From positions 62,001 to 126,000 of the forward strand of contig NZ_ARXU01000003.1 of NCBI RefSeq assembly GCF_000756655.1: a stretch of DNA of 64,000 bases, given 5' to 3'. Below the pieces are notes generated by a model, which was not told the DNA's origin, did no database searches, and saw only the letters and a list, made by a program, of their open reading frames with translations. Of the stretch, positions 6,629 through 24,337 are shown piece by piece; the first letter of the stretch is position 1; the number at the start of each line of letters is the position of its first letter. Source of the stretch: Alcanivorax jadensis T9 (GTDB lineage Bacteria; Pseudomonadota; Gammaproteobacteria; Pseudomonadales; Alcanivoracaceae). A program made the position numbers and the translations under genes.

Positions 6629-7498
6629 ATGGACACTACCGGCATGTACCCAGATTCAGATGCCTCCCCGGTCGACCCGGGCCTGTTTGCTGACCTGCCC
6701 ACCCTCCCCGGCATTTACCGGTTTTTTGGCGAGCAGGACGAACTACTCTATGTGGGTAAAAGCATCAATTTGCGGCAACGGGTAAAAAGCCATTTTTCTG
6801 CCCGGCATCGGGATAAGAAGGAAGGGCGGCTGTGCTACCTCACTCGCCGCATCGAGCATCAGGTCACCGCCGGCGAACTGGGCGCGCTGCTGCTGGAGAA
6901 TCGGGAAATCAAACAACGCCAGCCGATTTTCAACCGTCGCCAGCGCCGGTATCGGCAGCTGCACACCTGGCGACTGGAAATCGATGCCCGCGGTTTTCTG
7001 GTTCCGGTTTTATACCGACCGCTGGTGGATGACGATGGCTGGCAACAGGACAGCTTCGGCCTGTTTCGCAGCCCTCGCCAGGCAAAGACCATGCTGGACA
7101 GCAAAGTGCGCGACGCAGCTCTTTGCCCGCGTATCTGCGGGATGGAAACGGGACGCCACGGTGCCTGCTTTGCGCACCAGCTGGGCCGCTGTCAGGGTGC
7201 CTGTTGTGGCAAGGAAACCAGGAATAGCCATAACCAGCGGTTGCGGAAAACGCTTGAAGACCAGCATATCCACGCCTGGCCTTACTCTGGAATGCTGGTG
7301 ATTCGTGAAGAGAGCCCCCGGCAAACCGACTACCATCTGATTGATCAGTGGTGTCATCTCACTACCTTGCAGCGTCAGCCTGAATCCGCTGTGATTACGC
7401 CGGATGCGGATGCCAGCTTTGATCTGGACAGCTACCGCATGTTGATCCGGTTTCTGGATCAGGGTGTCGAGCATTTTGTGTTGCCGCCGGAAACCTAG
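6629..7498 (+). CDS. cho: Cho-like GIY-YIG excinuclease
   Basis: Homolog of E. coli Cho (UvrC-homologue), 289 aa, which makes the 3' incision in UvrAB-dependent nucleotide excision repair. The GIY-YIG domain is at the N-terminus: LPGIYRFFGEQDELLYVGKS with the second Arg in LRQRVKSHF and the metal-binding Glu in LLENREIKQRQPIFN. A Cys-containing stretch (CPRICGMETGRHGACFAHQLGRC split over about 20 residues) follows, as in UvrC/Cho. UvrB-binding and helix-hairpin-helix regions of UvrC are absent, as expected. Start is either 6629 or the ATG at 6644. Its stop TAG shares the palindrome CTAG with the stop of the convergent gene. Confidence 0.85.
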   Translation: MDTTGMYPDSDASPVDPGLFADLPTLPGIYRFFGEQDELLYVGKSINLRQRVKSHFSARHRDKKEGRLCYLTRRIEHQVTAGELGALLLENREIKQRQPIFNRRQRRYRQLHTWRLEIDARGFLVPVLYRPLVDDDGWQQDSFGLFRSPRQAKTMLDSKVRDAALCPRICGMETGRHGACFAHQLGRCQGACCGKETRNSHNQRLRKTLEDQHIHAWPYSGMLVIREESPRQTDYHLIDQWCHLTTLQRQPESAVITPDADASFDLDSYRMLIRFLDQGVEHFVLPPET

Positions 7499-9612
7499 GG
7501 CGGAGGCACCTTGGCAATGATTTCACTGTGCCAGGTGCCACCGGGCATGGCGATGCGACCATACTGCTGATCGCCGAATCCCACCTGCCCGACCAGCGGG
7601 TTGCCACCGCCGCTCTGACCAAAGTCGGCACTCTGCCCCAGCAACAGTTCGTTTTCGATGGTCAGGCTGGGCAAGCCGTCACTGTTCTGATCGCCGGATT
7701 TCAGCACCACGTTGCCGTTTCGCCAGCCGATACTACCGCTGACATTGGATAGCCGGAACGCTGACTGGGGGCTGGATACTTCTGCCAGTGACAGGTACGC
7801 ATTGCCATCCAGATTCATATAGCCCTCAAAGCCCAGAGTTGCCAGACCATCGGCAGTGGCCGGGTAGAGCACGAAACGAAACTGGTCCGCGGACAGATTG
7901 AAATCCCACAGTGCCACATTGGCGGTGGTTCCCCCCAGGTCACTGAGACTGCCCGCCCCGAGCAGGCCCCGTACCTGGTAGTGAGACAGGGTATCGGTGC
8001 GCAGCATGATCCCTGACGCCAGATCCGGAAAGGCCGGGTCGGTGTCCCCCAACGTAAGGTACAGGTCCCGGGCTTCCCAGAGCAGGTCATTATTGAGCAG
8101 GCCTACCGCCACATCGCTGGCGGTGTTGGCGAACAGGAAATGGGAATGGGTCTGCCAGTTATCCGCCGCCGCCGCGCGCACCAACGGATCTGCGCTATTC
8201 GCCGCGTCCCAGAATCCTGGCGACTGCACCATAACGGTAGCGTCTGCCCGCAGACCCACATTGCCGGCGGGCCCTTGCGGATAAGCCAGGATATCGGCAT
8301 CGAGCTTGCCCAGAGTGAGAACAACGCCCCAGTCATAACTGTCCGACCAGCCGCTGGTGGGGTTGGCAACGGTCAACTGTTCACTGTAGGCATGCAGATG
8401 GCCATTGCGCAGCAGGACGGCAAACGCCGATTCCCCGGCGGCGACCCGGGTCGGATGAAACACGCCCCCCGCACTGGTACACAAACCACTATCCGGCTGC
8501 CCGCCGCTAAAGCCGCCACCAAAGCACAATCCAGCCGGGCCGGTGTTGTTCTGCACCACATCCAGAACGGCATCCAGTGCGAACATGGGACCGGAACCAT
8601 TTCCCAGTCGGCGCCAGTTCACCAGTTCCATGCGGGTACGGTCACCGTCCGCATGGCCCAGGCGAAGCTGGAAATCCGTGTCGTAATCCCACTGGGTCTG
8701 TATCGTCAGTCCTTCTGAGCGGGGGGTATTGATTCCGGCATAATCCCAGTTGGCATTTGGCGCTGTACCATCATAGCCATAGCCGAGCCCACCAGCAGAC
8801 ACCCGCACACGAGCGTCCTTCAGCCCACCGAGCCAGGCGCCGTAGAGCAGAGGCTGACGATCCGTTCGATCAAAATTTGTCGGCGCTGCCTTGTACATCA
8901 GGTCGAATTCCAGCGCGGTATAAGTGTGATCCGCTTCCAGCAACAAGCCATTGCTGTCGATACCGATGACGCCAGTGGCTGGTGCATGTCCCCCGGCGGG
9001 GCCGTTGGTAAACCGGTTCTGTATGATCAGATTACCAATGCTCATCTCCGCACTGCCGGCTCCGCCCTGGCGGTATATCCAGTCACCAGTCATGGAAAAG
9101 TCCAGATTGGCATGCTGGCCATTCGTGCTAAATAGCCCTTGGTTCACCAACGTCAGGTTGCCTTGCGAATACAACCCAACCTGGCCCAGAGAGTGGCCCG
9201 CATAAGCCGGATTGGTCCCGGTTTGCAGGGTCATCCCGTCCAGGGTGAACAAGGAAGGCTGCCAGTCATACTGCAATGCCAGTAACGGAACGCCGCCATC
9301 GCTGCCCACATCCAGCTGTAGTTGTGCACTCAGAGGATTGCCGTCACCTTGCAGGGTGAGGCCATTCAGTTGTGTGCAGGCATGCTGGTCAGTCACACCG
9401 CCACTGCAGGTTCCGGCTGGTGCGTTACCCCTATCGGTTATCCAGTTCAGCTGTTGGGCTTGAATGGCGCCATTGCTTTCCAGATTGACGGTGAGACCGT
9501 CCTGACCGCGGATATCAGCCAGACCACTGTCATCAATAGGCGTCATGGCAGTGACTGCAGCGGACAGTGGCAATAGAGTCAGGATCCACAGACGTCGGTG
9601 ATCAGAAACCAT
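7495..9612 (-). CDS. Exported protein with L-D-x-L-x-x-V-x-G motif, member 4 of the surface-protein operon
   Basis: I do not recognise a defined function. The 705-aa product has a signal peptide (MVSDHRRLWILTLLPLSAAV) followed at once by MTPIDDSGLADIRGQDGLTV, the motif shared by all four proteins of this operon. The rest is rich in Gly, Asn, Asp, Leu and Thr with short beta-like segments and few charged stretches, as in beta-rich secreted or outer-membrane proteins. Similar N-termini occur in FilA/DUF6160-type proteins of Acinetobacter and Alcanivorax; that likeness is from memory. The ATG at 9612 has GGGAGGG nine bases upstream and overlaps the preceding stop by 11 bases, which indicates coupling. 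It is last in the operon. Confidence 0.7.
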   Translation of the reverse strand: MVSDHRRLWILTLLPLSAAVTAMTPIDDSGLADIRGQDGLTVNLESNGAIQAQQLNWITDRGNAPAGTCSGGVTDQHACTQLNGLTLQGDGNPLSAQLQLDVGSDGGVPLLALQYDWQPSLFTLDGMTLQTGTNPAYAGHSLGQVGLYSQGNLTLVNQGLFSTNGQHANLDFSMTGDWIYRQGGAGSAEMSIGNLIIQNRFTNGPAGGHAPATGVIGIDSNGLLLEADHTYTALEFDLMYKAAPTNFDRTDRQPLLYGAWLGGLKDARVRVSAGGLGYGYDGTAPNANWDYAGINTPRSEGLTIQTQWDYDTDFQLRLGHADGDRTRMELVNWRRLGNGSGPMFALDAVLDVVQNNTGPAGLCFGGGFSGGQPDSGLCTSAGGVFHPTRVAAGESAFAVLLRNGHLHAYSEQLTVANPTSGWSDSYDWGVVLTLGKLDADILAYPQGPAGNVGLRADATVMVQSPGFWDAANSADPLVRAAAADNWQTHSHFLFANTASDVAVGLLNNDLLWEARDLYLTLGDTDPAFPDLASGIMLRTDTLSHYQVRGLLGAGSLSDLGGTTANVALWDFNLSADQFRFVLYPATADGLATLGFEGYMNLDGNAYLSLAEVSSPQSAFRLSNVSGSIGWRNGNVVLKSGDQNSDGLPSLTIENELLLGQSADFGQSGGGNPLVGQVGFGDQQYGRIAMPGGTWHSEIIAKVPPP

Positions 9613-10267
9613 ACAGAAACGCCCTCCCGTCAAAACGCATCTGCATGTCGCCGTTGGCGCTCGCCGAATCACTCATTCGAAACGCCAGTGCACTACCAGG
9701 ATTGTTATCCAGCATGAAACCGGGCGTAGCGCCATCGTCCACTTCCACAGCCATGCGTCCGATATTCAGAAAGGTATGCATATCCTGATACTCGCCCGGC
9801 CCTTTCGCAAAGGGGTAATCCAGCTGAATTGCCGGCAGACCATCAGGGTTACAGGGGGAAAGCAGGCAGTTACCGTCAGCATCTTCAAAACGACTCAGGT
9901 CACGGTAGCTGGATCCGCTATTACTCAGATATGCCCCTTCCAACCGGACATCTTCAATGGCCAGGCTGCCGTAGAATTCTTTCAATACCAGCCAGTTTCC
10001 TTCCCTGGCGACAAACTCCAACCCAAGACGACAGGGGTCCGGGGTGCCGCCACATGCAGTATCCGGTGCATTGTCCTCACCAACATTATTTCGCAGCCGC
10101 AGGGTTAGCTGAATGGCATCACCGCCAGTGACTGACTGAAGCTCACTGTCGTTAAGAGGAACCATGGAATCGGTTTTCCCCGTCTGCGGATAAATAATGC
10201 TTAGCAGCAACCATAGCGCCACAAACATAAAAGGGATGTATTTCGATGGCATACCATATCCAGACAT
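9602..10267 (-). CDS. Exported protein with L-N/D-x-L-x-x-V-T-G motif, member 3 of the surface-protein operon
   Basis: Unknown function, 221 aa, the smallest member. An N-terminal hydrophobic segment (KYIPFMFVALWLLLSIIY) is followed by MVPLNDSELQSVTGGDAIQL, equivalent to the motif in its neighbours. The remaining 165 residues are polar and beta-like, with two Cys pairs (CGGTPDPC and CLLSPC) that could form disulfides outside the cytoplasm. GAGAGGG lies just ahead of the ATG at 10267; an in-frame ATG at 10252 is an alternative. Eleven bases separate it from the gene upstream, and it overlaps the gene downstream. Export is inferred from the signal sequence only. Confidence 0.68.
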   Translation of the reverse strand: MSGYGMPSKYIPFMFVALWLLLSIIYPQTGKTDSMVPLNDSELQSVTGGDAIQLTLRLRNNVGEDNAPDTACGGTPDPCRLGLEFVAREGNWLVLKEFYGSLAIEDVRLEGAYLSNSGSSYRDLSRFEDADGNCLLSPCNPDGLPAIQLDYPFAKGPGEYQDMHTFLNIGRMAVEVDDGATPGFMLDNNPGSALAFRMSDSASANGDMQMRFDGRAFLYGF

Positions 10268-10278
10268 ATTTCCCTCTC

Positions 10279-11595
10279 TCAGCAGAACATGGTGCTGCCG
10301 TAGCAGTTTTGTTTCGGCGCCAGATCAAACTCGGGGTGCTCCAGCAGCAACCCCGGCGCCCCCAGCAATGCAATGGCTTCATCAATGCCGCGGTTACCAA
10401 GATCCGCATTGGGGTTGTAAACATCCAGCAGCTTCACGGAAGGGGCGTTGAGCCACCATCCGGTATTCGCCGGAACCGCATAACTGCTTGAGCAACGGGG
10501 GGTAGCATTACTGGTGGCACAGATATCAAAAGCGCCAGGAGGCAACTCTTCCGTCGGCGTCAATTTGCTGTAACGGGGGTATGCAATGGGCTCTCTCTGG
10601 AAGGAAAGAAAGAAATCCGAGGTATCTTCAAATGTCAGTTTATGAACGTTACGAAGATCGGTATTGAGGCTGGCGAAAACCGTATCCATTACTGCTTCAG
10701 CGGCACAGGCAAGGGGGTTAAAAAAAACACAACTTCCCCCCAGGAACTCAAGGTTGTTGGTTTTCAGTTCTGCAGCTTGCAGGCCAAGCGTCTGCATTCT
10801 TGTGCCGGCAATATCAACAAAGAGTGCATCAGAAAGATTATTGCCACAGTCATCATGTCCTATGCTGGTCCTTCCCGTACATCCTGTTGCTCTTATTGTA
10901 AAAATACTCAGCAACCGAGCCTCAATATCCATGGTCAGTGATAACTCAGAACCCAGAAATCCGCTGACACTGTTTATCCCGGAATGGCACCCCACAACGC
11001 CAGAACCTGTTACGGCACTGGGGTTACAGGTAGTGGCAAACGCTGTATTTTCCTGATTCACCGCATTGTTCGTGTAGTACCGCCGCCCTGCACTGATGGC
11101 TCCATCTGCGGATTGCGCGCCAATCTTTATGCCGGCAATCTCCCGCAAAGTTGTGGAATTGTCATTCTTTACCGCAAATTCAATATAGGGCCTGTCCAGT
11201 GTAAATGGGCTTCCTGGATCGCCGATATCCGTGCCGTTTCTTCCCATCAGGCTCAGGTAATCAATATCGATATCACAACCTGCATGGCCGGAAAGGTGGT
11301 CGTTAATTCCACCGCAACCAAGTTGCAACTTTGAAACATTAAGATTCAACTGAAGCTCACCGTCCAGGCCAATTCGATAAAACTCAAAGGGTGTGGAGTA
11401 GGCATTAGGATTCGACAATGCGCTGCCTGATATTTTGTCGGAAACGATCAGTCCCTGACCCGTAACAGCTCTCATCTGATCCTCATCAAGAGGACTCATA
11501 CCTCCAGCATTGAACGCGTAGGAAGATGAAAACCAGAACAATATGAGCGCAGCTGATATTTTTACTGACGGAATTTTTTTTGTTTTATTTTCCAT
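10279..11595 (-). CDS. Exported protein with L-D-E-x-x-x-x-V-T-G-Q motif, member 2 of the surface-protein operon
   Basis: Unknown function, 438 aa. The N-terminus MENKTKKIPSVKISAALILF plus FWFSSSYAF is a signal peptide, and MSPLDEDQMRAVTGQGLIVS follows it. The body contains several Cys in short loops (CGGINDHLSGHAGC, CTGRTSIGHDDC) and ends in CYGSTMFC. Base composition here is visibly more AT-rich than in the flanking genes, which hints at separate ancestry or relaxed selection. TAGAGAA precedes the ATG. It sits nine bases behind the first gene of the operon. A surface or fibre component is possible; nothing proves it. Confidence 0.68.
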   Translation of the reverse strand: MENKTKKIPSVKISAALILFWFSSSYAFNAGGMSPLDEDQMRAVTGQGLIVSDKISGSALSNPNAYSTPFEFYRIGLDGELQLNLNVSKLQLGCGGINDHLSGHAGCDIDIDYLSLMGRNGTDIGDPGSPFTLDRPYIEFAVKNDNSTTLREIAGIKIGAQSADGAISAGRRYYTNNAVNQENTAFATTCNPSAVTGSGVVGCHSGINSVSGFLGSELSLTMDIEARLLSIFTIRATGCTGRTSIGHDDCGNNLSDALFVDIAGTRMQTLGLQAAELKTNNLEFLGGSCVFFNPLACAAEAVMDTVFASLNTDLRNVHKLTFEDTSDFFLSFQREPIAYPRYSKLTPTEELPPGAFDICATSNATPRCSSSYAVPANTGWWLNAPSVKLLDVYNPNADLGNRGIDEAIALLGAPGLLLEHPEFDLAPKQNCYGSTMFC

Positions 11596-11604
11596 AAAAA
11601 TTCT

Positions 11605-13212
11605 CTAATTCCCTGCACCATAGCTGGTAAATTTCATGTAATTCACCTGTAAACCTTCTGCTCTGGCATCTCCAAGGTTTGCAACACCAGTACGAATAAC
11701 GGGAAGGGTGTTGGTACCGGGAACCCCCAACAACGTTGATGGGTTCATCTTGTTCACCGTGGTGTAATCAGACCCGGCACTGATGTTGTAGCTGCCTCCA
11801 TAGCCACATTGGTAATCACTCCCGCTATTAGCGGTACAATTAACTGCCTGACGATAATAGCGATCCGCAACACCTCCGGAGCCTCCACGCGGGGCATAAT
11901 CACCACAGTTGCTTCCCCCCGGGCAGGAGTACTGATCCTGTCCTGGCCGAACATCCACCGCCGTGATCATGTAAGCGAACGCATCAAAGTCATCGCAGCT
12001 TTCACACTTGCGAAAGAAGATGCCGTCATCGGTATCGTTGTAGGTATTGCGATTTGGAGAAACCGTTGTCGATACCGCTGGACAACCAACCCCACGACAG
12101 GGATACCAGTCCCCCCAACGTGAGTAGCCATGGGTAACAAAGTAGGAATCATCCACCGCATGAGAAGGCGTTGCGCCAGGGGTGTTGCTCAATAACGCTG
12201 CCCGGGCAGTGATATAGCCGGCATCCGCACTGTCCGGTACGGCCAGCGAGTAGAAATGATCATGAACCGCTGTATGGGTAGGGACATCGGGTAGACGCGG
12301 AATTTCCAGAATGAAATTACCGTCCTGAGACGGCACCGTATCCAGGGTCAGCGCCTGATAGTAAAGCTGTCCCAGCGGAACATAGGCATCCACATTTTTG
12401 AAATGCAGACCTTCGAGGGCATCAAACCTCACCGGTTGCCCCACCACATCGCTGGCGCCCGGACCATCATGCTGTGCTGCAGAAAACCGGAAGTCGCCCT
12501 GCAGGCGACTGTGGTAAAGGATGGCAAAGGTTTCGTTACCCGGTTGGGTAAACTGGAAAAGGCGGAAGGCTGAATTGGCCGCATTACCGCGAATGATGGT
12601 CTGGGTTTTCAGCAAATCCCCGGTACCGACGGCCAGGTTGTCATTATTACCGGAGCGACCTACTTCCAGTTCTCCCCAAAAGGAAAAGGTGTATTCCGGC
12701 TGGGCACTGGGCGCCAGATATTCATAGATGGTGCTGTCCGGGTTATTGGGATCACTGTTGACGACGGTGCCATCGTAGCTGACCCCGCGGGGCGAAAATG
12801 CGCGCAACAGGTACGGGTTATCATGGGGCGCAAAGTCACTGATCAGTCCACCACGAGGGCAGCCGAGGCTTGAGGCATCACAGGGCGTGCCGAAATTGCC
12901 GCCGCTTTCATCCCAGTGAAATCCCCCGGTACCCGCACCGGAAATGTTCACGCCATACCAGCGCAGGTCCCCCCGTTGCAACGTGGTGCTGCCTACCGGA
13001 TCCGAGCCTACCTGCTCGAAATAACTGGTGGGCTTGATCAGCCAGCGAAAATCCTCGAAGCCGATAGCCAGGCCCGTGCCGGTCACCTGAGACAGGCTTT
13101 CTTCATCCAGGGATTCCAGTGCAGCCTTACCCACCATGGGGCCAGCCGCGAGGACAACCAGCAAAACACGGAATAACCTGATGCAGTGTCTGTATTTGGG
13201 TCTGGTGAGCAT
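11605..13212 (-). CDS. Exported protein with L-D-E-x-x-L-x-x-V-T-G motif, first gene of the surface-protein operon
   Basis: Unknown function, 535 aa. A signal peptide (CIRLFRVLLVVLAAGPMVGK) precedes ALESLDEESLSQVTGTGLAI, the motif found in the three downstream proteins. The mature part is Gly/Asn/Asp/Ser/Tyr-rich and has clustered Cys (CDASSLGC, CRGVGC, CESC, CPGGSNC, CTANSGSDYQC), compatible with an oxidised extracytoplasmic protein. I prefer the ATG at 13212, with GAGG at normal spacing; a GTG at 13218 is possible. It leads a four-gene operon preceded by a palindrome at 13258-13279. No secretion machinery is adjacent. Confidence 0.7.
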   Translation of the reverse strand: MLTRPKYRHCIRLFRVLLVVLAAGPMVGKAALESLDEESLSQVTGTGLAIGFEDFRWLIKPTSYFEQVGSDPVGSTTLQRGDLRWYGVNISGAGTGGFHWDESGGNFGTPCDASSLGCPRGGLISDFAPHDNPYLLRAFSPRGVSYDGTVVNSDPNNPDSTIYEYLAPSAQPEYTFSFWGELEVGRSGNNDNLAVGTGDLLKTQTIIRGNAANSAFRLFQFTQPGNETFAILYHSRLQGDFRFSAAQHDGPGASDVVGQPVRFDALEGLHFKNVDAYVPLGQLYYQALTLDTVPSQDGNFILEIPRLPDVPTHTAVHDHFYSLAVPDSADAGYITARAALLSNTPGATPSHAVDDSYFVTHGYSRWGDWYPCRGVGCPAVSTTVSPNRNTYNDTDDGIFFRKCESCDDFDAFAYMITAVDVRPGQDQYSCPGGSNCGDYAPRGGSGGVADRYYRQAVNCTANSGSDYQCGYGGSYNISAGSDYTTVNKMNPSTLLGVPGTNTLPVIRTGVANLGDARAEGLQVNYMKFTSYGAGN

Positions 13213-13257
13213 GCTCACCTCATTGCGTTGTTATTGTTTTATGTACAGCCGTTCACT

Positions 13258-14975: not shown

Positions 14976-16712
14976 TTATCCCTCGTTTTCGATCTTGCGG
15001 GTGATTACCCACTGCTGGGCAATGGAGAGAATGTTGTTGGTCAGCCAGTACAGCACCAGACCGGCAGGGAACCACAACATGAACACGGAGAACACCACCG
15101 GCATCCACTTCATCACCTGGGCCTGCATGGGGTCGGCCGGGGTCGGATTGAGGCGGGTCTGCAGGAACATGGAGGCGCCCATCAGGATCGGCAGGACGAA
15201 GTACGGATCCATTACTGACAGATCGTTGATCCACAGGAAGAAAGGTGCCTGACGCAGCTCCACGGATTCCAGCAACACATAGTAAAGAGCGATAAACACC
15301 GGCATCTGAACCAACATCGGCAGACAACCACCAAGCGGGTTGATCTTTTCGCGCTGGAACAACTTCATGGTTTCCATTTGCGCTTTCTGCTTGTCGTTCT
15401 TGTTCTGCTCCTTGATGCGCTGCATTTCCGGCGCCACCTTGCGCATTTTCGCCATGGAGCGATAACTGGTGGCGCTGAGCTTGAAGAAGATCGCCTTGAT
15501 AATGAGCGTGAGCAGGATAATGGCAACACCCCAGTTACCGACGCCCATACCAATATCGATATCCATGCCGAACACGGACACTTCACCACTTTGCAGGAAT
15601 ACCAGCAGGGCGAAGATGGGCTGGGAGATAAACCACAACCAGCCGTAATCCACAGTCATATTCAGACCGGGGCTAATTGCCTCCAGCTTGTCCTGCTGCT
15701 TGGGCCCGGCATAGAACTCGGCGTAAAGCACCTTCTCTTCGCCTGGTGCCACCTTGAGGGTAGGAGACACAAACCGCAGCAGGTACTGACCGCGTTTTTC
15801 CAGGTGCACGCTGGAGTAATGGTTCTTCTGCTGGGCATCAGGCACCCAGGCAGTCACAAAATAGTGCTGCGCCATGGCCAGCCAGCCGCCCTGGACCGTC
15901 AGGTCCAGCGGGTTTTCTGACATGTCTTCAAAATCGAGTTTGTTGTAAGGCTTTTCACTGTCCCAGTAGGCACCCCCCAGATAGGTGGGCATGGGGATAA
16001 AGCCACTGTTGGACAGACCAGGATCTTCGCTGCCATCACGCTTGATCTGGCCATACAAGGCACCGGACCACTCGCTGTTGCCCTGGTTACGGACAATATG
16101 GCTAACGCGCACCAGGTAGCTGCCGCGTTCAAAGGTGAAACGCTTGACCAGCTCGGCGCCATTATCCTGACGCAAGGTCAGGTCCACGTTCAGTTCCTGG
16201 GTGCCTTCATCCAGCTGGTAGCTCTGTTTGGCTGCACTCCATAGTGGACGGCCGGCGCTGGAATCGGTGCCGTTCTTGCCAATCAGGCCACTCTGAGCCA
16301 CATAGGTGCGGCTGGCATCCTGCTCAAGCAACACGAAGGGTTGGTCCGGGGTATCCACATGATGGGGGAACTCAGGCAGCGCCAGGCGAACGATATCACC
16401 GCCTTGGGGATCGATTTCCACTCTCAACACATCGGTGTTAACTCGAATGCGTTGCTGGCTAGCTGTGGTTTCCGTGGATTCGGAAGAAGGGGCTTCAACC
16501 CGCTCTGACGGTGCAGAGGGAATACCGTTATCCACCTCATCTGCCTGAGGGGAAGGCAGGTCGAGTCCGTCGCCATTGCCTTGCGCGCTCTGCGCAACCT
16601 CCTCAACGGGGGCTGGCTGGGTCGGGTTGGCATAATCCTGTTGCCAGGCCTGAATCATCAGGTAGGAAACGATGGCAATGCCGGTAATTACAAGGGCGCG
16701 CTGGATTTCCAT
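14976..16712 (-). CDS. yidC: Membrane protein insertase YidC
   Basis: Inner-membrane insertase, 578 aa, that places proteins in the membrane alone or with SecYEG. The first helix (RALVITGIAIVSYLMIQAW) is followed by an acidic linker, the large periplasmic P1 domain and the conserved five-helix core. That core includes INPLGGCLPMLVQMPVFIAL and LNPTPADPMQAQVMKWMPV. It is a little longer than the E. coli protein because of the Pro/Glu-rich linker after the first helix. The gene starts 40 bases after rnpA, leaving no room for yidD, which usually lies here. Its stop is followed by a terminator. Confidence 0.97.
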   Translation of the reverse strand: MEIQRALVITGIAIVSYLMIQAWQQDYANPTQPAPVEEVAQSAQGNGDGLDLPSPQADEVDNGIPSAPSERVEAPSSESTETTASQQRIRVNTDVLRVEIDPQGGDIVRLALPEFPHHVDTPDQPFVLLEQDASRTYVAQSGLIGKNGTDSSAGRPLWSAAKQSYQLDEGTQELNVDLTLRQDNGAELVKRFTFERGSYLVRVSHIVRNQGNSEWSGALYGQIKRDGSEDPGLSNSGFIPMPTYLGGAYWDSEKPYNKLDFEDMSENPLDLTVQGGWLAMAQHYFVTAWVPDAQQKNHYSSVHLEKRGQYLLRFVSPTLKVAPGEEKVLYAEFYAGPKQQDKLEAISPGLNMTVDYGWLWFISQPIFALLVFLQSGEVSVFGMDIDIGMGVGNWGVAIILLTLIIKAIFFKLSATSYRSMAKMRKVAPEMQRIKEQNKNDKQKAQMETMKLFQREKINPLGGCLPMLVQMPVFIALYYVLLESVELRQAPFFLWINDLSVMDPYFVLPILMGASMFLQTRLNPTPADPMQAQVMKWMPVVFSVFMLWFPAGLVLYWLTNNILSIAQQWVITRKIENEG

Positions 16713-16752
16713 AACAGACTATTCTGTGGCGAGAAAAACGGGCCGCAGTTTC

Positions 16753-17118
16753 TCAAGCTTGCCCGCACTTAGCAAGCAGCTTGTCGAATAGCTTGCCAAG
16801 CTGGTCGGTGACTTCTGCCGGGTCCGGATGATCCACTCGTCCGCGAACCAGCAAAATAATGTCCAGACCTGCCAGTTTATCCTGCCTCAATCGGAACTGT
16901 TCCCGGGCTCTGCGTTTGACGCAACCACGGTCAACGGCACGTTTGGCACGCTTGCGACCAATCACCAGTCCCAACCGGGGCAGAGCCTGCTGGTTGGGAC
17001 AGGCCAATAGCAAAAACGCCGCATTCCCCACCTTCCATTTGGAGTGGTCGAATACGGTCTGATATTGGGGTCCGGTGAGAAGTCTGTGCTGGCGGGTAAA
17101 AGCCCGGGTTATTGGCAC
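16753..17118 (-). CDS. rnpA: Ribonuclease P protein component
   Basis: Protein subunit of RNase P, 121 aa, which helps the catalytic RNA remove tRNA 5' leaders. The family signature KRAKRAVDRGCVKRRAREQF, with the basic RNR-like helix, is present near residue 60. It starts with GTG at 17118, preceded by GAGGTAAC at good spacing. The gene lies between rpmH and yidC in the standard order, 38 bases behind rpmH. The next gene, normally yidD, is missing. Confidence 0.95.
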   Translation of the reverse strand: MPITRAFTRQHRLLTGPQYQTVFDHSKWKVGNAAFLLLACPNQQALPRLGLVIGRKRAKRAVDRGCVKRRAREQFRLRQDKLAGLDIILLVRGRVDHPDPAEVTDQLGKLFDKLLAKCGQA

Positions 17119-17156
17119 TGTTACCTCAGCCAGGAGGGCAGAGTAAAACGGTTGGC

Positions 17157-17291
17157 TCAGGCAGCCAACCGCTTACGACCCTTGGCACGACGAGCGGCCA
17201 GGATTTTGCGACCGTTTTTGGTCGCCATGCGAGCACGGAAACCGTGGGCACGTTTGCGCTTGAGTACGCTGGGCTGAAATGTGCGTTTCAT
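17157..17291 (-). CDS. rpmH: 50S ribosomal protein L34
   Basis: L34, 44 aa, with the invariant sequence [18 protein letters not shown] and a very basic C-terminus. The frame extends upstream to 17363, but the universal L34 start MKRTFQPS fixes the ATG at 17291, with a GGGGAAGA ribosome site. It is the first gene of the rpmH-rnpA-yidC unit that runs away from the origin. Confidence 0.98.
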
Positions 17292-17400
17292 GGTGTCTTC
17301 CCCATGGAATGAGACAGCAATTGGAAGGCCGGCAAGTCTAGGGAAAGCGAAATCCTCTGTCAATCAGCTTTTCAGGCAAGTTCAAGACGCGCTGGAGAGA

Positions 17401-17700
17401 ACTGTTAATAGAACTTAAATATTTAAATGTTTTTTGTAGTAGTAGTTATTATAGGGGAAAGCACTTTTTGTGGATAAGCGTGAAATCCCTATTTATATCA
17501 TTAGGTTGCGCCGTTAATAACTTGCGTACCATTGTGTGTAAGTACTGGGGATGAACGGGGGACGACCTGTCATTAAATGTGGGTATAAGTTGTACCTCCA
17601 GTTGTCCACCGGGTTGTACCTGCATTCCCGCACAGGGTTATGGTCCTAGTTATCCACAGAAATAAAGCCGGAAAAATCCCGGCTGCCCTGTGGATAGTTA
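17401..17700. other. oriC: Chromosomal replication origin (oriC)
   Basis: The 607-base gap between rpmH and dnaA contains an AT-rich stretch (about 17401-17456) and perfect DnaA boxes TGTGGATAA at 17469-17477 and TTATCCACA at 17650-17658. A one-mismatch box TGTGGATAG lies at 17689-17697, and a weaker box TTGTCCACC at 17602-17610. Three TAG triplets followed by TTA, TTA and TAG run from 17437 to 17454, then GGG and a spacer, then the first DnaA box; this is the layout described for DnaA-trio unwinding elements. Position between rpmH and dnaA matches pseudomonad-type origins. Promoters for both genes must also lie here. Confidence 0.88.
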
Positions 17701-17898
17701 TCGCTCTGAGGGGGTAGAATGACGGGCTCGATTCCGGTTCTTTGACCGAATTTTCATTCAGTTCATAAAAGACGATTCAGGGCCCAAGAGTGCCGCTGGA
17801 CTGTGATTTCTGTCGCGGTCGGGTCCCTTGTTCTTCCTCTTTTTGCCTTCGTGTAGAGAGAGGGGCGCAGTATCGTTCCAGGATAATAAGGCGTGTGC

Positions 17899-19308
17899 GT
17901 GTCTGAAGAGCTCTGGCAACGCTGCCTGACTCGACTCGAGGATGAGTTGCCGTCACAGCAGTACAATATGTGGATTCGGCCATTACAGGTGGCTGCATCT
18001 GCGGATGGCGCCGAGCTGACGCTGTTTGCACCCAATCGGTTTGTGGTTGACTGGGTTCGTGACAAGTACATGGATCGCATCGGCGAGGTACTGGGCGAGC
18101 TGCAAAGTGGCGCGCTGCCCCAGTTGCGGCTGGAGGTGGGATCCAGCCGGATGCCCGCTCCGTCTGCCCAGTCGTCCTCTCCTGCCCCTGCCAGCCCCGC
18201 TACGCCATCTTCCGGTCATATGCGCACACCGGAGCTGGCGGAGAGCAAACCGCAGCCTACGGAGCTGGGAGGCGCCCGCAAGCATCGCAGTAATCTCAAC
18301 ACCGGGTTCACCTTTGCCACCTTTGTGGAGGGCAAGTCCAACCGCATGGCGGCGGCGGCGGCCCAGCAGGTGGCTGAGAACCCGGCCAGCCACGGCTACA
18401 ACCCCCTGCTGTTGTACGGGGGCGTGGGCCTGGGTAAGACCCACTTGATGCATGCGGTGGGCAACGAGTTGCTGCGACGCAACCCCAACGCCAAGGTGGT
18501 CTATCTACACAGTGAGCGTTTTGTCGCGGATATGATCTCGGCCCTGCGCAACAAGACCATCAATGAGTTCAAGCGCTTCTACCGGTCAGTGGATGCGCTG
18601 CTGATTGATGATATTCAATTCTTTGCAGGTAAAGAGCAGTCCCAGGAAGAGTTCTTCCACACCTTCAATGCGCTGCTGGAAAATGGCCAGCAGATCATTC
18701 TCACCTGTGACAAGTTTCCCAAGGAAGTGGATGGTCTCGAGGAGCGGCTCAAGAGTCGGTTCGGCTGGGGGTTGTCCCAGCCCATGGAGCCACCGGAGCT
18801 GGAAACCCGGGTAGCGATCCTGAAAAAGAAGGCGGAAGAAGCCAAGGTGGATCTGCCCAATGACGCGGCCTTCTTTATCGCGCAACGAATCCGTTCTAAT
18901 GTACGGGAACTGGAAGGGGCGTTGCGCCGGGTGATCGCCCATGTGCGTTTCACTGGTGCTCAGATAGATATCGGCCTGATCAAAGAAGCGCTAAAGGATC
19001 TGATTGCCCTGCAGGCGCGACAGATCAGCATCGACAATATTCAGCGTGTGGTGGCCGAGTACTACAAGATCAAGATCAATGATCTACTCTCTCCACGACG
19101 GACCCGCTCGGTGGCGAGACCGCGGCAGGTGGCCATGGCGTTGTCCAAGGAACTGACCAGCCATAGTCTGCCGGAGATCGGTGAAAATTTTGGTGGCCGT
19201 GATCACACCACCGTGTTGCATGCCTGTCGTAAGGTGTTGCAGCTGCGGGAATCCAATCCGGAAATCGAGGAAGATTACCAGAGCCTGTTACGGACGCTGA
19301 CGTCCTGA
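17899..19308 (+). CDS. dnaA: Chromosomal replication initiator DnaA
   Basis: AAA+ ATPase, 469 aa, that binds DnaA boxes in the adjacent oriC and opens the duplex. Domain I begins [20 protein letters not shown] and is followed by a Pro/Ser-rich linker. Walker [13 protein letters not shown] is near residue 174 and Walker [12 protein letters not shown] near 234. The C-terminal DNA-binding signature [13 protein letters not shown] is near 433. GTG at 17899 is preferred: AAGG lies seven bases ahead and the protein then begins like other DnaA proteins; an in-frame GTG at 17893 sits too close to that site. It leads the dnaA-dnaN-recF-gyrB series. Confidence 0.98.
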
Positions 19309-19402
19309 CGGGGAACCCCGGCCCGGTGGCCGGCTCTGTGCATCATATGTAAAGGAAGGGCCTGGGAGCCTCTGGCCCAAATAACCAGAACGGGAAAGCG
19401 CG

Positions 19403-20503
19403 ATGAAATTCTCAATCAATAGAGAACAACTGCTCAAGCCCCTGCAACAGGTGGCTGCAGTGGTGGAAAAACGGCAAACCCTGCCGGTGCTGTCCAATGT
19501 CCTGCTGGAGGTGGGTGACGGGCAGCTTTCCATGACAGGCACCGATCTGGAACTGGAGCTGGTGGCTCGCCTGCCACTGGAAGGGGAGCATCAGGCCGGG
19601 GAAACCACGGTACCGGCACGCAAGCTGGTGGACATTGCCAAGAGTCTGCCGGCGGAAGCCGACATCCGTTTCGAGGTGGATGGCGAGCGCATGCTGGTTC
19701 GTTCAGGTCGCAGCCGTTTCACTCTCTCCACCCTGCCCGCGTCCGAGTTTCCCAATCTGGAAGAAGATGCTGCCGGTTCCAGCCTGGATATCCAGCCCGG
19801 CGTATTGCGCAGCCTGATCGACCGTACTGCCTTTTCCATGGCCCAGCAGGACGTGCGCTATTACCTCAATGGCATGCTGTTCGAGCTCAAGCCGGGCCGT
19901 CTGCGTGCCGTGGCCACCGATGGCCACCGCCTTGCCCTGTGCGATGCGGAGCTGGATGTGCCGGTAGAAGAAGCCTCGGTGATCCTGCCACGCAAAGGGG
20001 TGATGGAGCTGTCCCGTATTCTGGGTGATGCCGGCGAAAATGCCCGCCTGACCGTGGGTCGCAACCATGTCCGTATTGTGGTGGGCGCGATTACGTTTAC
20101 CTCCAAACTGGTTGATGGCAAGTTCCCCGAGTACGACCGGGTGATTCCCAAGGAAGGCTCGCGCACCATCATTGCCGACCGGGAAACCCTGCGCCAGGCC
20201 CTGGCCCGGGTAGCGATTCTGTCCAATGAGAAATACCGGGGTGTGCGGGTTCAGTTGTCCGAAGGCAGCCTGCGTATCGTGGCCAACAACCCGGAGCAGG
20301 AAGAAGCGGAAGAAGAAGTGTCCGTAGACTTCAATGGGCAGCCCCTGGAGATTGGTTTCAATGTGAGCTACCTGCTGGACGTGCTCAACACCATGGCAGG
20401 GACCCAGGCAGAGCTGGAGATGGGCGACAGCAACAGCAGCGCCCTGGTGCTGGATCCTGAGAGCAAGGCAGCCCTGTATGTGGTCATGCCCATGCGGCTC
20501 TGA
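19403..20503 (+). CDS. dnaN: DNA polymerase III beta subunit (sliding clamp)
   Basis: Ring-shaped processivity clamp, 366 aa, exactly the usual length. It begins MKFSINREQLLKPLQQVAAV and ends in the family C-terminus YVVMPMRL. Three repeats of the clamp fold can be followed, and the middle one contains YYLNGMLFELKPGRLRAVAT. The gene is 94 bases behind dnaA and is followed by a strong terminator, so recF and gyrB probably also have a promoter of their own. The ribosome site (GGGAAAG) is moderate. Confidence 0.98.
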   Translation: MKFSINREQLLKPLQQVAAVVEKRQTLPVLSNVLLEVGDGQLSMTGTDLELELVARLPLEGEHQAGETTVPARKLVDIAKSLPAEADIRFEVDGERMLVRSGRSRFTLSTLPASEFPNLEEDAAGSSLDIQPGVLRSLIDRTAFSMAQQDVRYYLNGMLFELKPGRLRAVATDGHRLALCDAELDVPVEEASVILPRKGVMELSRILGDAGENARLTVGRNHVRIVVGAITFTSKLVDGKFPEYDRVIPKEGSRTIIADRETLRQALARVAILSNEKYRGVRVQLSEGSLRIVANNPEQEEAEEEVSVDFNGQPLEIGFNVSYLLDVLNTMAGTQAELEMGDSNSSALVLDPESKAALYVVMPMRL

Positions 20504-20526
20504 TCAGCAGCCCCTGCTCCTCCCCA

Positions 20527-20556
20527 ATACCCGGCCACCGCGCCGGGTATTTTTTT
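20527..20556 (+). terminator. Rho-independent terminator after dnaN
   Basis: Nine-bp stem ATACCCGGC / GCCGGGTAT, six-base loop, then a run of seven T. It lies 24 bases after the dnaN stop. Confidence 0.92.
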
Positions 20557-20590
20557 GCCCGGCATCAGCCGGCTGCGGTAAAGGTATCGT

Positions 20591-20695
20591 TACCACAGAG
20601 CGCTCAGGGGTGAGATCCTTTGCGAAGCAGCACGGCGCCCTTTTGGTCGGAAATGGGGTTTCCTGAGTGAGCTCGGTGTCCTCTGTGGTGGAAAC
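20591..20695. repeat. CACAGAGG-type repeat between dnaN and recF
   Basis: The left arm has ACCACAGAG and the right arm has GTCCTCTGTGGTGGAAAC. About 40 bases of the right half align, with few changes, to the reverse complement of the region starting at 2927. It is a third arm set of the same dispersed element. Confidence 0.55.
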
Positions 20696-20800
20696 AGGTG
20701 TTAGCATCATCGCCCCTGCCCTCTCCCTGAGCTACAATCGGTGCAGTCATTTCTTGCTGCTGCGGCGGCTTCCCTGGTTGTTGTGGGTGGATTCCTTTCT

Positions 20801-21910
20801 ATGTTGAGCCGTCTCCAGCTTGGAGATTTTCGCAATTACCGCCAGTTGGATATTGCCCTCTCCCCTTCCCTCAATGTGATTCTTGGTGATAACGGCAGCG
20901 GCAAGACCAGCCTGCTGGAAGCCATCTATTTCATTGGTAGCGGGGGGCGGTCATTCCGTGGCGGCAGGTTGTCCCGGCTGGTCCGCGACGGTGCGCCCGC
21001 GGCCACCCTTTATGCGGAAGTATCCGCAGGCGAGAAGATCCACCGTTTGGGCGTGCGCCGGACTCCGGGTGGGATCGATGCCATCAAGCTCAACGGGGAA
21101 ACCCCCAGGGCCCTTAGTGAGGTGGCGGGTCTTCTGCCTGTTCTGGCTTTGCATCCCACGTCGGTAGAGCTGGTGTTTGGGGCTTCAGCCCTGCGCCGGC
21201 GGTTTATGGACTGGGGAATGTTCCACGTGGAACATGAATTTATGCCGGTATGGCGCACGGCTTCTGCGGCCCTGAAGCAGAGAAACGCCCTACTCCGTAC
21301 CGGGCGTCCGAACCCCCGTGAACTGGGGTTTTGGGACCAGCAACTGGCGCAGACTTCTGATAGAATCGAAGGGTTGCGTCGTAGCTATCTACAAGCCTTG
21401 CAGTCAGGCCTGGATGCGGTGTTGTCTCATCTTGCGCCGGAGTTGAAAATTCGGGTGCATCTACAGACGGGACTACAAAAAGACGAGAGCTATGCGGATG
21501 CCCTGGCTCGCCTCCGTCCTGACGATATCCGACGTGGGTTCAGTCAGGCAGGGTATCACCGCAGCGATATTCGTATCGAAACCCGGGGAGTGGTGGCGCG
21601 AGATCGCCTTTCCCGGGGCCAGGCCAAGCTGGTTGCCTATGGTCTGGTGCTGGCTCAGTTGCCGTTGATCAGCCAGGTAGGGAAAGTTTGTACCCTGCTG
21701 GTGGATGATCTGGCTGCTGAGCTGGACGAAGAACACCGTAATCAGATGCTGGGGTATCTGGCTTCCACTGGCCACCAGACCCTGATTACCGCACTGGATC
21801 AGCCCCAATGGGAGGCTGTGGTGCAGCAGAATAAAGCGTTACGGGCGATCGAGAGCAAAATGTTCCACGTGGAACATGGCCAACTTCGGCCCCTCACCGG
21901 GAGTGAATAA
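20801..21910 (+). CDS. recF: DNA replication and repair protein RecF
   Basis: SMC-like ATPase, 369 aa, that loads RecA at single-strand gaps with RecO and RecR. Walker A GDNGSGKTS is at residues 29-37. The ABC signature region LSRGQAKLVAYGLVLAQL and Walker B TLLVDDLAAELDEEH are near the C-terminus. ATG 20801 gives MLSRLQLGDFRNYRQL, the normal start; the frame also runs upstream to 20741 without family similarity. Unusually, the gene contains two identical 18-bp parS palindromes, both in the same frame, encoding MFHVEH at residues 140-145 and 354-359. It ends nine bases before gyrB. Confidence 0.97.
   Translation: MLSRLQLGDFRNYRQLDIALSPSLNVILGDNGSGKTSLLEAIYFIGSGGRSFRGGRLSRLVRDGAPAATLYAEVSAGEKIHRLGVRRTPGGIDAIKLNGETPRALSEVAGLLPVLALHPTSVELVFGASALRRRFMDWGMFHVEHEFMPVWRTASAALKQRNALLRTGRPNPRELGFWDQQLAQTSDRIEGLRRSYLQALQSGLDAVLSHLAPELKIRVHLQTGLQKDESYADALARLRPDDIRRGFSQAGYHRSDIRIETRGVVARDRLSRGQAKLVAYGLVLAQLPLISQVGKVCTLLVDDLAAELDEEHRNQMLGYLASTGHQTLITALDQPQWEAVVQQNKALRAIESKMFHVEHGQLRPLTGSE
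21219..21234. promoter_or_regulatory. parS: parS centromere-like site 1 (ParB binding), inside recF
   Basis: Perfect palindrome TGTTCCACGTGGAACA, flanked by A and T so that 18 bases are symmetrical. It matches the chromosomal parS consensus known from Pseudomonas (TGTTCCACGTGGAAC-type). It is about 3.5 kb from oriC, where parS sites normally cluster. The parA and parB genes are not in the window. Confidence 0.9.
21861..21876. promoter_or_regulatory. parS: parS centromere-like site 2 (ParB binding), near the end of recF
   Basis: Second perfect copy of TGTTCCACGTGGAACA, again with the outer A/T pair, 642 bases from the first and 34 bases before the end of recF. Two identical perfect copies so close to oriC argue strongly against chance. 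Confidence 0.9.

Positions 21911-24337
<2,427 letters not shown>

Follow-up and report, generated by a model that had tools for sequence, protein, structure and literature searches.

The recF locus and its two palindromes

The window analysed here is a 64,000-nucleotide stretch of an Alcanivorax jadensis T9 contig that carries the genes dnaA, dnaN, recF and gyrB in this order on one strand (Table 1). The recF product scores 317 bits against the TIGR00611 profile (cut-off 172), and its nearest relative in a RecF search, 98% identical, comes from an uncultured Alcanivorax. A scan of the whole window detected the 18-mer ATGTTCCACGTGGAACAT twice, at 21218-21235 and 21860-21877, and no third place with up to 3 mismatches across the 64 kb; in 100 shuffles of the window, the mean number of occurrences was 0.02 and no shuffle contained two. 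Both 18-mers share the recF reading frame, encode the same hexapeptide, MFHVEH, and match the 16-bp parS palindrome TGTTYCACGTGRAACA within the 0-1 mismatch allowed for such a site, with their starts 642 bp apart. The original prediction of two perfect, identical parS palindromes inside recF, in the same frame and encoding the same peptide, was thus confirmed, coordinates included. AlphaFold2 modelling of this RecF (36 rows; mean pLDDT 93.6) places the first MFHVEH where a helix ends and turns, whereas the second forms part of a strand, with its last residue just outside; the predicted occurrence of an identical hexapeptide in two folds fits a constraint acting on DNA.

Table 1. Coordinates of the features around recF in the window
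Feature	Position	Strand	Basis
Likely core of oriC, with perfect DnaA boxes at 17469-17477 (-) and 17650-17658 (+)	17469..17658		Pattern scan
dnaA	17893..19308	+	TIGR00362
dnaN	19403..20503	+	ORF and gene order
recF, 369 aa, host of both parS sites	20801..21910	+	ATG start; TIGR00611
parS site 1, TGTTCCACGTGGAACA, within codons for residues 140-145 (MFHVEH)	21219..21234		Pattern scan
parS site 2, TGTTCCACGTGGAACA, within codons for residues 354-359 (MFHVEH)	21861..21876		Pattern scan
gyrB, start 9 bases past recF	21920..24337	+	ORF and gene order

A pattern scan of positions 16001-22500 with the DnaA box consensus identified two perfect boxes upstream of dnaA that likely mark oriC; the parS sites lie approximately 3.6-4.4 kb from these boxes. 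Across the whole assembly (3.63 Mb in 29 contigs, 99.99% complete), the recF pair are the sole matches with up to 1 mismatch, and a reversed-pattern control gave none, in agreement with the expectation of a few sites clustered close to oriC. At up to 2 mismatches, 3 sites were found in the assembly compared with 4 for the control, so that the extra two-mismatch site on contig C6 was rejected as chance level. The genome also encodes the anticipated ParB (TIGR00180, E 1.9e-60; G000:C3:45058-45585), the gene being located on the recF contig, outside the window and approximately 38 kb from recF.

Occupancy of the two sites in Gammaproteobacteria

Both sites are present in recF, with 0-1 mismatch, in all 12 loci retrieved by the RecF search; 11 of these belong to Alcanivorax and its relatives, and the twelfth to a distant gammaproteobacterium with a 35% identical RecF. 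A class-wide sample was assembled from 140 gammaproteobacterial genomes, one per family, of which 115 encode a RecF above the family cut-off. Sites with up to 1 mismatch are present in 125 of the 140 genomes; 85 contain exactly two and 15 none. The recF sites were scored at aligned codons, with both A and C accepted at base 16 in line with the published P. aeruginosa consensus, and sites with at least 3 mismatches were considered lost. By this scoring, 99 of 115 recF genes retain site 1 and 91 of 113 retain site 2 with no more than 1 mismatch; 82 of the 115 families have both at homologous codons, and 6 have neither. The class recF genes read xTG-TTY-CAC-GTG-RAA-CAx at both places. Of 20 further gammaproteobacterial recF genes, both sites are present in 18 and absent from two, which belong to family f192 from the order of the window organism. 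In a few families parS-like sites occur in recF in a different frame (G113 and G101), in frame at a different place (G125) or additionally near the start of the open frame (G010).

One broken recF (L130, of G093) was excluded from all counts, and another, split in two frames and lacking site 2 (L128, of G076), from the tree counts. Loci L132-L144 (the order of G028; 13 genomes of one family) and L162-L191 were left out of the analysis, and only the match list for L334-L345 entered the results.

These alignments bear on two earlier statements about the protein. Site 2 had been assigned to a poorly conserved C-terminus, which has to be corrected: where parS is kept, the motif at this place is F-H-V-[EK] class-wide, in most cases with [HQ]-G after it. 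Site 1 had been placed in a conserved RecF segment; the comparison suggests that this motif, too, is mostly an imprint of parS.

Several genomes with no RecF above the cut-off deserve separate mention. In G071, G126 and G139, parS is kept as paired sites with starts 36-43 bp apart, and the centromere may have moved out upon recF loss. G100, for which no RecF was matched at E 1e-20, contains 12 parS sites (up to 1 mismatch).

Constraint on DNA and constraint on protein

In the class recF genes, the codons for FHV[EK] are parS-compatible in 185 of 190 cases, compared with approximately 21 expected from the codon use of the same genes. Within these tetrapeptides, histidine is encoded by CAC in 187 of 190 cases, valine by GTG in 188 and E or K by RAA in all 190; elsewhere in the same genes the corresponding fractions are about 51%, 40% and 57%. 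E and K are interchanged (36 K in 190) and the third base A stays constant. In a per-column test of synonymous conservation, 8 of the top 10 columns, of 353, fall in the two sites. A RecF tree was constructed with the site columns omitted; on it, 2-4 changes are required at the third codon positions of H142, V143, E144, H356 and V357, compared with 21-63 for the remaining 43 conserved columns, which include F141 and F355, corresponding to the free base 5 of the sites. Conservation of FHVE at the protein level only was rejected on the codon counts and the tree counts, and the prediction that the DNA is conserved more than the protein was upheld by all three analyses.

The bases of the 18-mer that vary freely in genes encoding FHV[EK] are the two outer ones, palindrome bases 5, 12 and 16 and, at site 2, base 1. 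Y5 and R12 represent the usual degeneracy of parS. Raw counts hint at palindromic covariation between the F codon and the E/K codon, the C-with-A combination being seen in 0 of 97 cases at site 1 and 7 of 93 at site 2, a hint that was set aside once relatedness had been taken into account with independent-pair tests. The variation at base 16 fits TGTTCCACGTGGAACM, the parS consensus reported for P. aeruginosa (PMC5098823).

Site losses and concerted variants

In the class sample, 14 families have lost site 1 and 17 have lost site 2. The RecF tree, in which many branches lack support, requires at least 13 and at least 16 state changes, respectively, so almost every loss looks separate. None of the families lacking a site retains FHV[EK] there. 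Upon loss of site 1, H is replaced by Y in 7 of 14 families and V by many residues; F persists in 13 of the 14 and is therefore selected in the protein.

In some lineages, the two sites have changed in concert. G084 has exactly two TGTTTCATATGAAACA sites genome-wide (relaxed pattern), both in recF and encoding FHMK twice, and G022 exactly two TGTTCCACATGGAACA sites (relaxed pattern, genome-wide), again both in recF and encoding FHME twice; V is thus changed to M at both sites, each lineage using one variant palindrome twice. G029 carries a pair of variants, both in recF, that share the ending CGTAGAACA and differ in having CTACGTAG or CCACGTAG (FYVE and FHVE). Control patterns gave no match in G084, G022 or G029. 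A shift in the parS sequence explains the paired V-to-M replacement, and a protein cause is hard to imagine because the two residues, approximately 200 positions apart, belong to a helix end and a strand, respectively. As a counterpoint, the peptides at the two G003 sites are unlike, FHMK and FHVK, although the DNA represents one variant with its centre in opposite orientation.

ParB loss, E. coli and other classes

The coupling of sites and ParB was examined in 120 genomes from the order that includes G233, taken as Enterobacterales; of the RecFs found, that of G233 is closest to E. coli RecF (56% identical). ParB was called present at E <= 1e-40, weaker ParBs being scored absent, which gave 93 genomes with and 27 without it. 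Of the 93 ParB-encoding genomes, 90 contain exact parS, as do none of the 27 others, so the two are co-present or co-absent in 117 of 120 genomes; the losses are grouped by family, and the independent events are fewer than the genomes. The recF DNA was compared for 89 of the 116 genes of this order together with E. coli, 90 rows in all. No exact recF site was found in the 24 ParB-less rows (E. coli included), and three of them have site 2 with 1 mismatch. In the 66 rows with ParB, 57 retain site 2 with no more than 1 mismatch and 9 have lost it, compared with 26 and 37, respectively, for site 1; family f169 kept ParB, yet all of its 8 rows have lost site 1 and all but one have lost site 2. For G446, the sole ParB-positive row of family f181, the match is located on a small second contig and may represent a plasmid protein. 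Because ParB-encoding rows without site 1 or site 2 exist, as do the f192 rows without both, the recF sites are not obligatory.

E. coli recF contains TGCTTTCACAACGAACCC and ATGTTTACCGTGGAAAAG, with 5 and 3 mismatches to parS, which, from the sequence, seem to be decayed copies. E. coli K-12 was counted as ParB-less following the accounts available in the literature (PMC7022226, PMC3909081); a ParB-family match found in the E. coli control genome may be plasmid- or phage-borne.

In a sample of 32 recF genes from 22 families of other classes of the same phylum, neither parS nor FHVE at site 1 was found in any gene, and FHVE at site 2 occurs in two. The site 2 strand was therefore probably friendly to the peptide beforehand. 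FHV[EK] is also encoded without parS in three genomes of the Enterobacterales-like order, as FHVK at site 2 in ParB-less G381 and FHVE at site 2 in ParB-encoding G382, both 4 mismatches from parS, and as FHVE at site 1 in ParB-encoding G428, 3 mismatches from parS. Together with the two RecFs from other classes, these cases suggest that the protein itself has some liking for FHV[EK].

MukB was considered as a marker of ParABS loss and dropped, since its matches in 10 of the 140 class genomes were weak and partial (3 over the cut-off). Deviating sites were also noted in the Enterobacterales-like order. G443 encodes ParB and has no standard parS, carrying three CACATG/CATGTG-type sites, one of them just past the recF match; in G395, G414 (f183), G437 and G453 (f171) the recF-end site is CATGTG and standard parS is found elsewhere.

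The recF-gyrB junction

The stop codon of recF lies within a TATAAT box in 35 of 114 families (for example L016, L060 and L017; the window does not have it); in 34 of them TGn precedes the box, making it an extended -10 box that probably serves gyrB. The box begins exactly 20 bp past parS in all 32 box-bearing families with a recF-end parS; the equivalent distance from parS to the stop codon is found in 8 of 60 families without the box (family counts, uncorrected for kinship). Because of this fixed spacing, ParB at the recF end may affect gyrB transcription in box-bearing families. None of the 90 rows of the Enterobacterales-like set has a TATAAT box at the recF stop.

Centromere function as the probable source of the RecF motifs

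From the sites, their uniqueness, the freezing of their codons, their losses and their concerted variants, all of which are observed, we consider it very probable that the two palindromes constitute the chromosomal centromere (parS) of A. jadensis and that selection on DNA fixed the corresponding RecF residues, the pair being probably ancestral. ParB binding and a segregation function in this organism would follow by analogy with characterized systems, in which ParB loads at parS, closes with CTP and spreads, and ParA moves the complex, as summarized in PMC7022226, where chromosomal parS is described generally as a ParB-bound 16-bp palindrome near oriC. By the same analogy, ParB would bind each recF site, close as a CTP-dependent clamp and slide to the adjoining DNA, ParA would move the ParB-coated origin region, and SMC would perhaps be loaded at parS. 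In the recF frame, a 16-bp site would give x-F-H-V-[E/K]-x, and parS could reside in recF because the helix end and the C-terminal strand both appear to tolerate this peptide; DNA-level selection would then fix these RecF residues, and upon relocation of parS or loss of ParB the peptide would mostly drift off. For most Gammaproteobacteria, two sites in recF were probably the original form of the centromere, and the RecF FHVE motif, as far as sequence comparison can tell, looks mainly like a centromere imprint. We likewise favour, with good though lesser confidence, the broader proposition that parS in recF was the ancestral gammaproteobacterial centromere and dictated two RecF tetrapeptides, that DWGxFHVE and FHVEHG are footprints of segregation that shift with parS, and that E. 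coli recF holds two decayed fossils predating the loss of ParABS.

It is unlikely, yet worth weighing, that ParB-binding sites were kept in recF by a second job, such as SMC loading near oriC or control of dnaA-dnaN-recF-gyrB, and not by segregation. In the published P. aeruginosa data, excess ParB lowers the expression of gyrB and its neighbours (PMC5521831), and in 32 of the 92 families with a recF-end parS the TATAAT box is at its exact 20-bp distance; the absence of this box from the recF stop in the window speaks against such a role here, as does the description, in the same paper, of P. aeruginosa parB and parS mutants in which genes near parS3/4 rose and the neighbours of parS1/2 did not (PMC5521831). 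Far less probable is that RecF needs the FHVE peptides and the likeness to parS reflects favoured codons only. The retention of F in families lacking site 1 and the FHV[EK] peptides encoded without parS, in two other-class RecFs and in G381, G382 and G428, would agree with it, but it does not account for 185 parS-compatible triplets where own-gene codon use predicts approximately 21, for the constant third base A under E/K interchange or for the drift of H, V and E once parS is lost, and no further conserved column tested in the gene is similarly frozen. The palindrome by itself names no protein, so that another CACGTG-binding protein might be invoked; this is more improbable still, given the concordance of exact parS with ParB in the Enterobacterales-like genomes and a consensus that equals the known ParB site as presented in PMC5098823 and PMC7022226. 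A recent 18-bp duplication within recF, suggested by the identity of the copies in the window, can be dismissed as next to impossible and is refuted as a recent event, since both positions are filled in most class families and the flanking codons differ.

With the palindromes interpreted as a centromere, the window represents a further case of an arrangement already known from P. aeruginosa, where parS1 and parS2 are reported inside recF, approximately 4 kb from oriC (PMC3909081, PMC5521831). Both organisms have two parS in recF; according to the same descriptions, P. aeruginosa has in addition parS3/parS4 and weaker sites, whereas the window genome has the two recF sites only. In P. aeruginosa, loss of all four oriC-proximal parS is reported to raise anucleate cells to approximately 25%, whereas a single site suffices for normal segregation (PMC5098823), and intragenic parS sites have been described as mutated with the protein unaltered (PMC4368675). 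In Caulobacter, insertion of parS copies is reported to have revealed a hot spot over recF and gyrB (PMC5815017). The positions of chromosomal parS elsewhere vary by lineage, and none of the 32 other-class recF genes carries one. The window RecF is an ordinary member of its family, but its FHVE motifs are apparently set mostly by DNA. Neither conservation of the recF sites beyond this species nor an effect on the RecF sequence is discussed in the available portions of the P. aeruginosa parS papers; likewise, the accessible parts of the literature searched gave no mention of conservation across the class, of a RecF footprint, of concerted variants or of remnants in E. coli, and the parS survey of Livny et al. 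(2007) may report part of them.

A protein motif conserved in alignments would thus be set by a DNA signal of another function, a caution that conservation alone does not reveal function. The centromere would be tied to the dnaA-dnaN-recF-gyrB operon across much of a large class, and recF could serve to predict the centromeres of uncultured Gammaproteobacteria and provide a natural record of ParABS loss or site relocation.

Other open reading frames in the window

Apart from the recF region, positions 7495-13218 of the window (- strand) contain four adjoining ORFs, three of which, judged by eye, have V-T-G-[GQT] shortly after a signal-like N-terminus; the ORFs with this motif perhaps form one family of secreted proteins.
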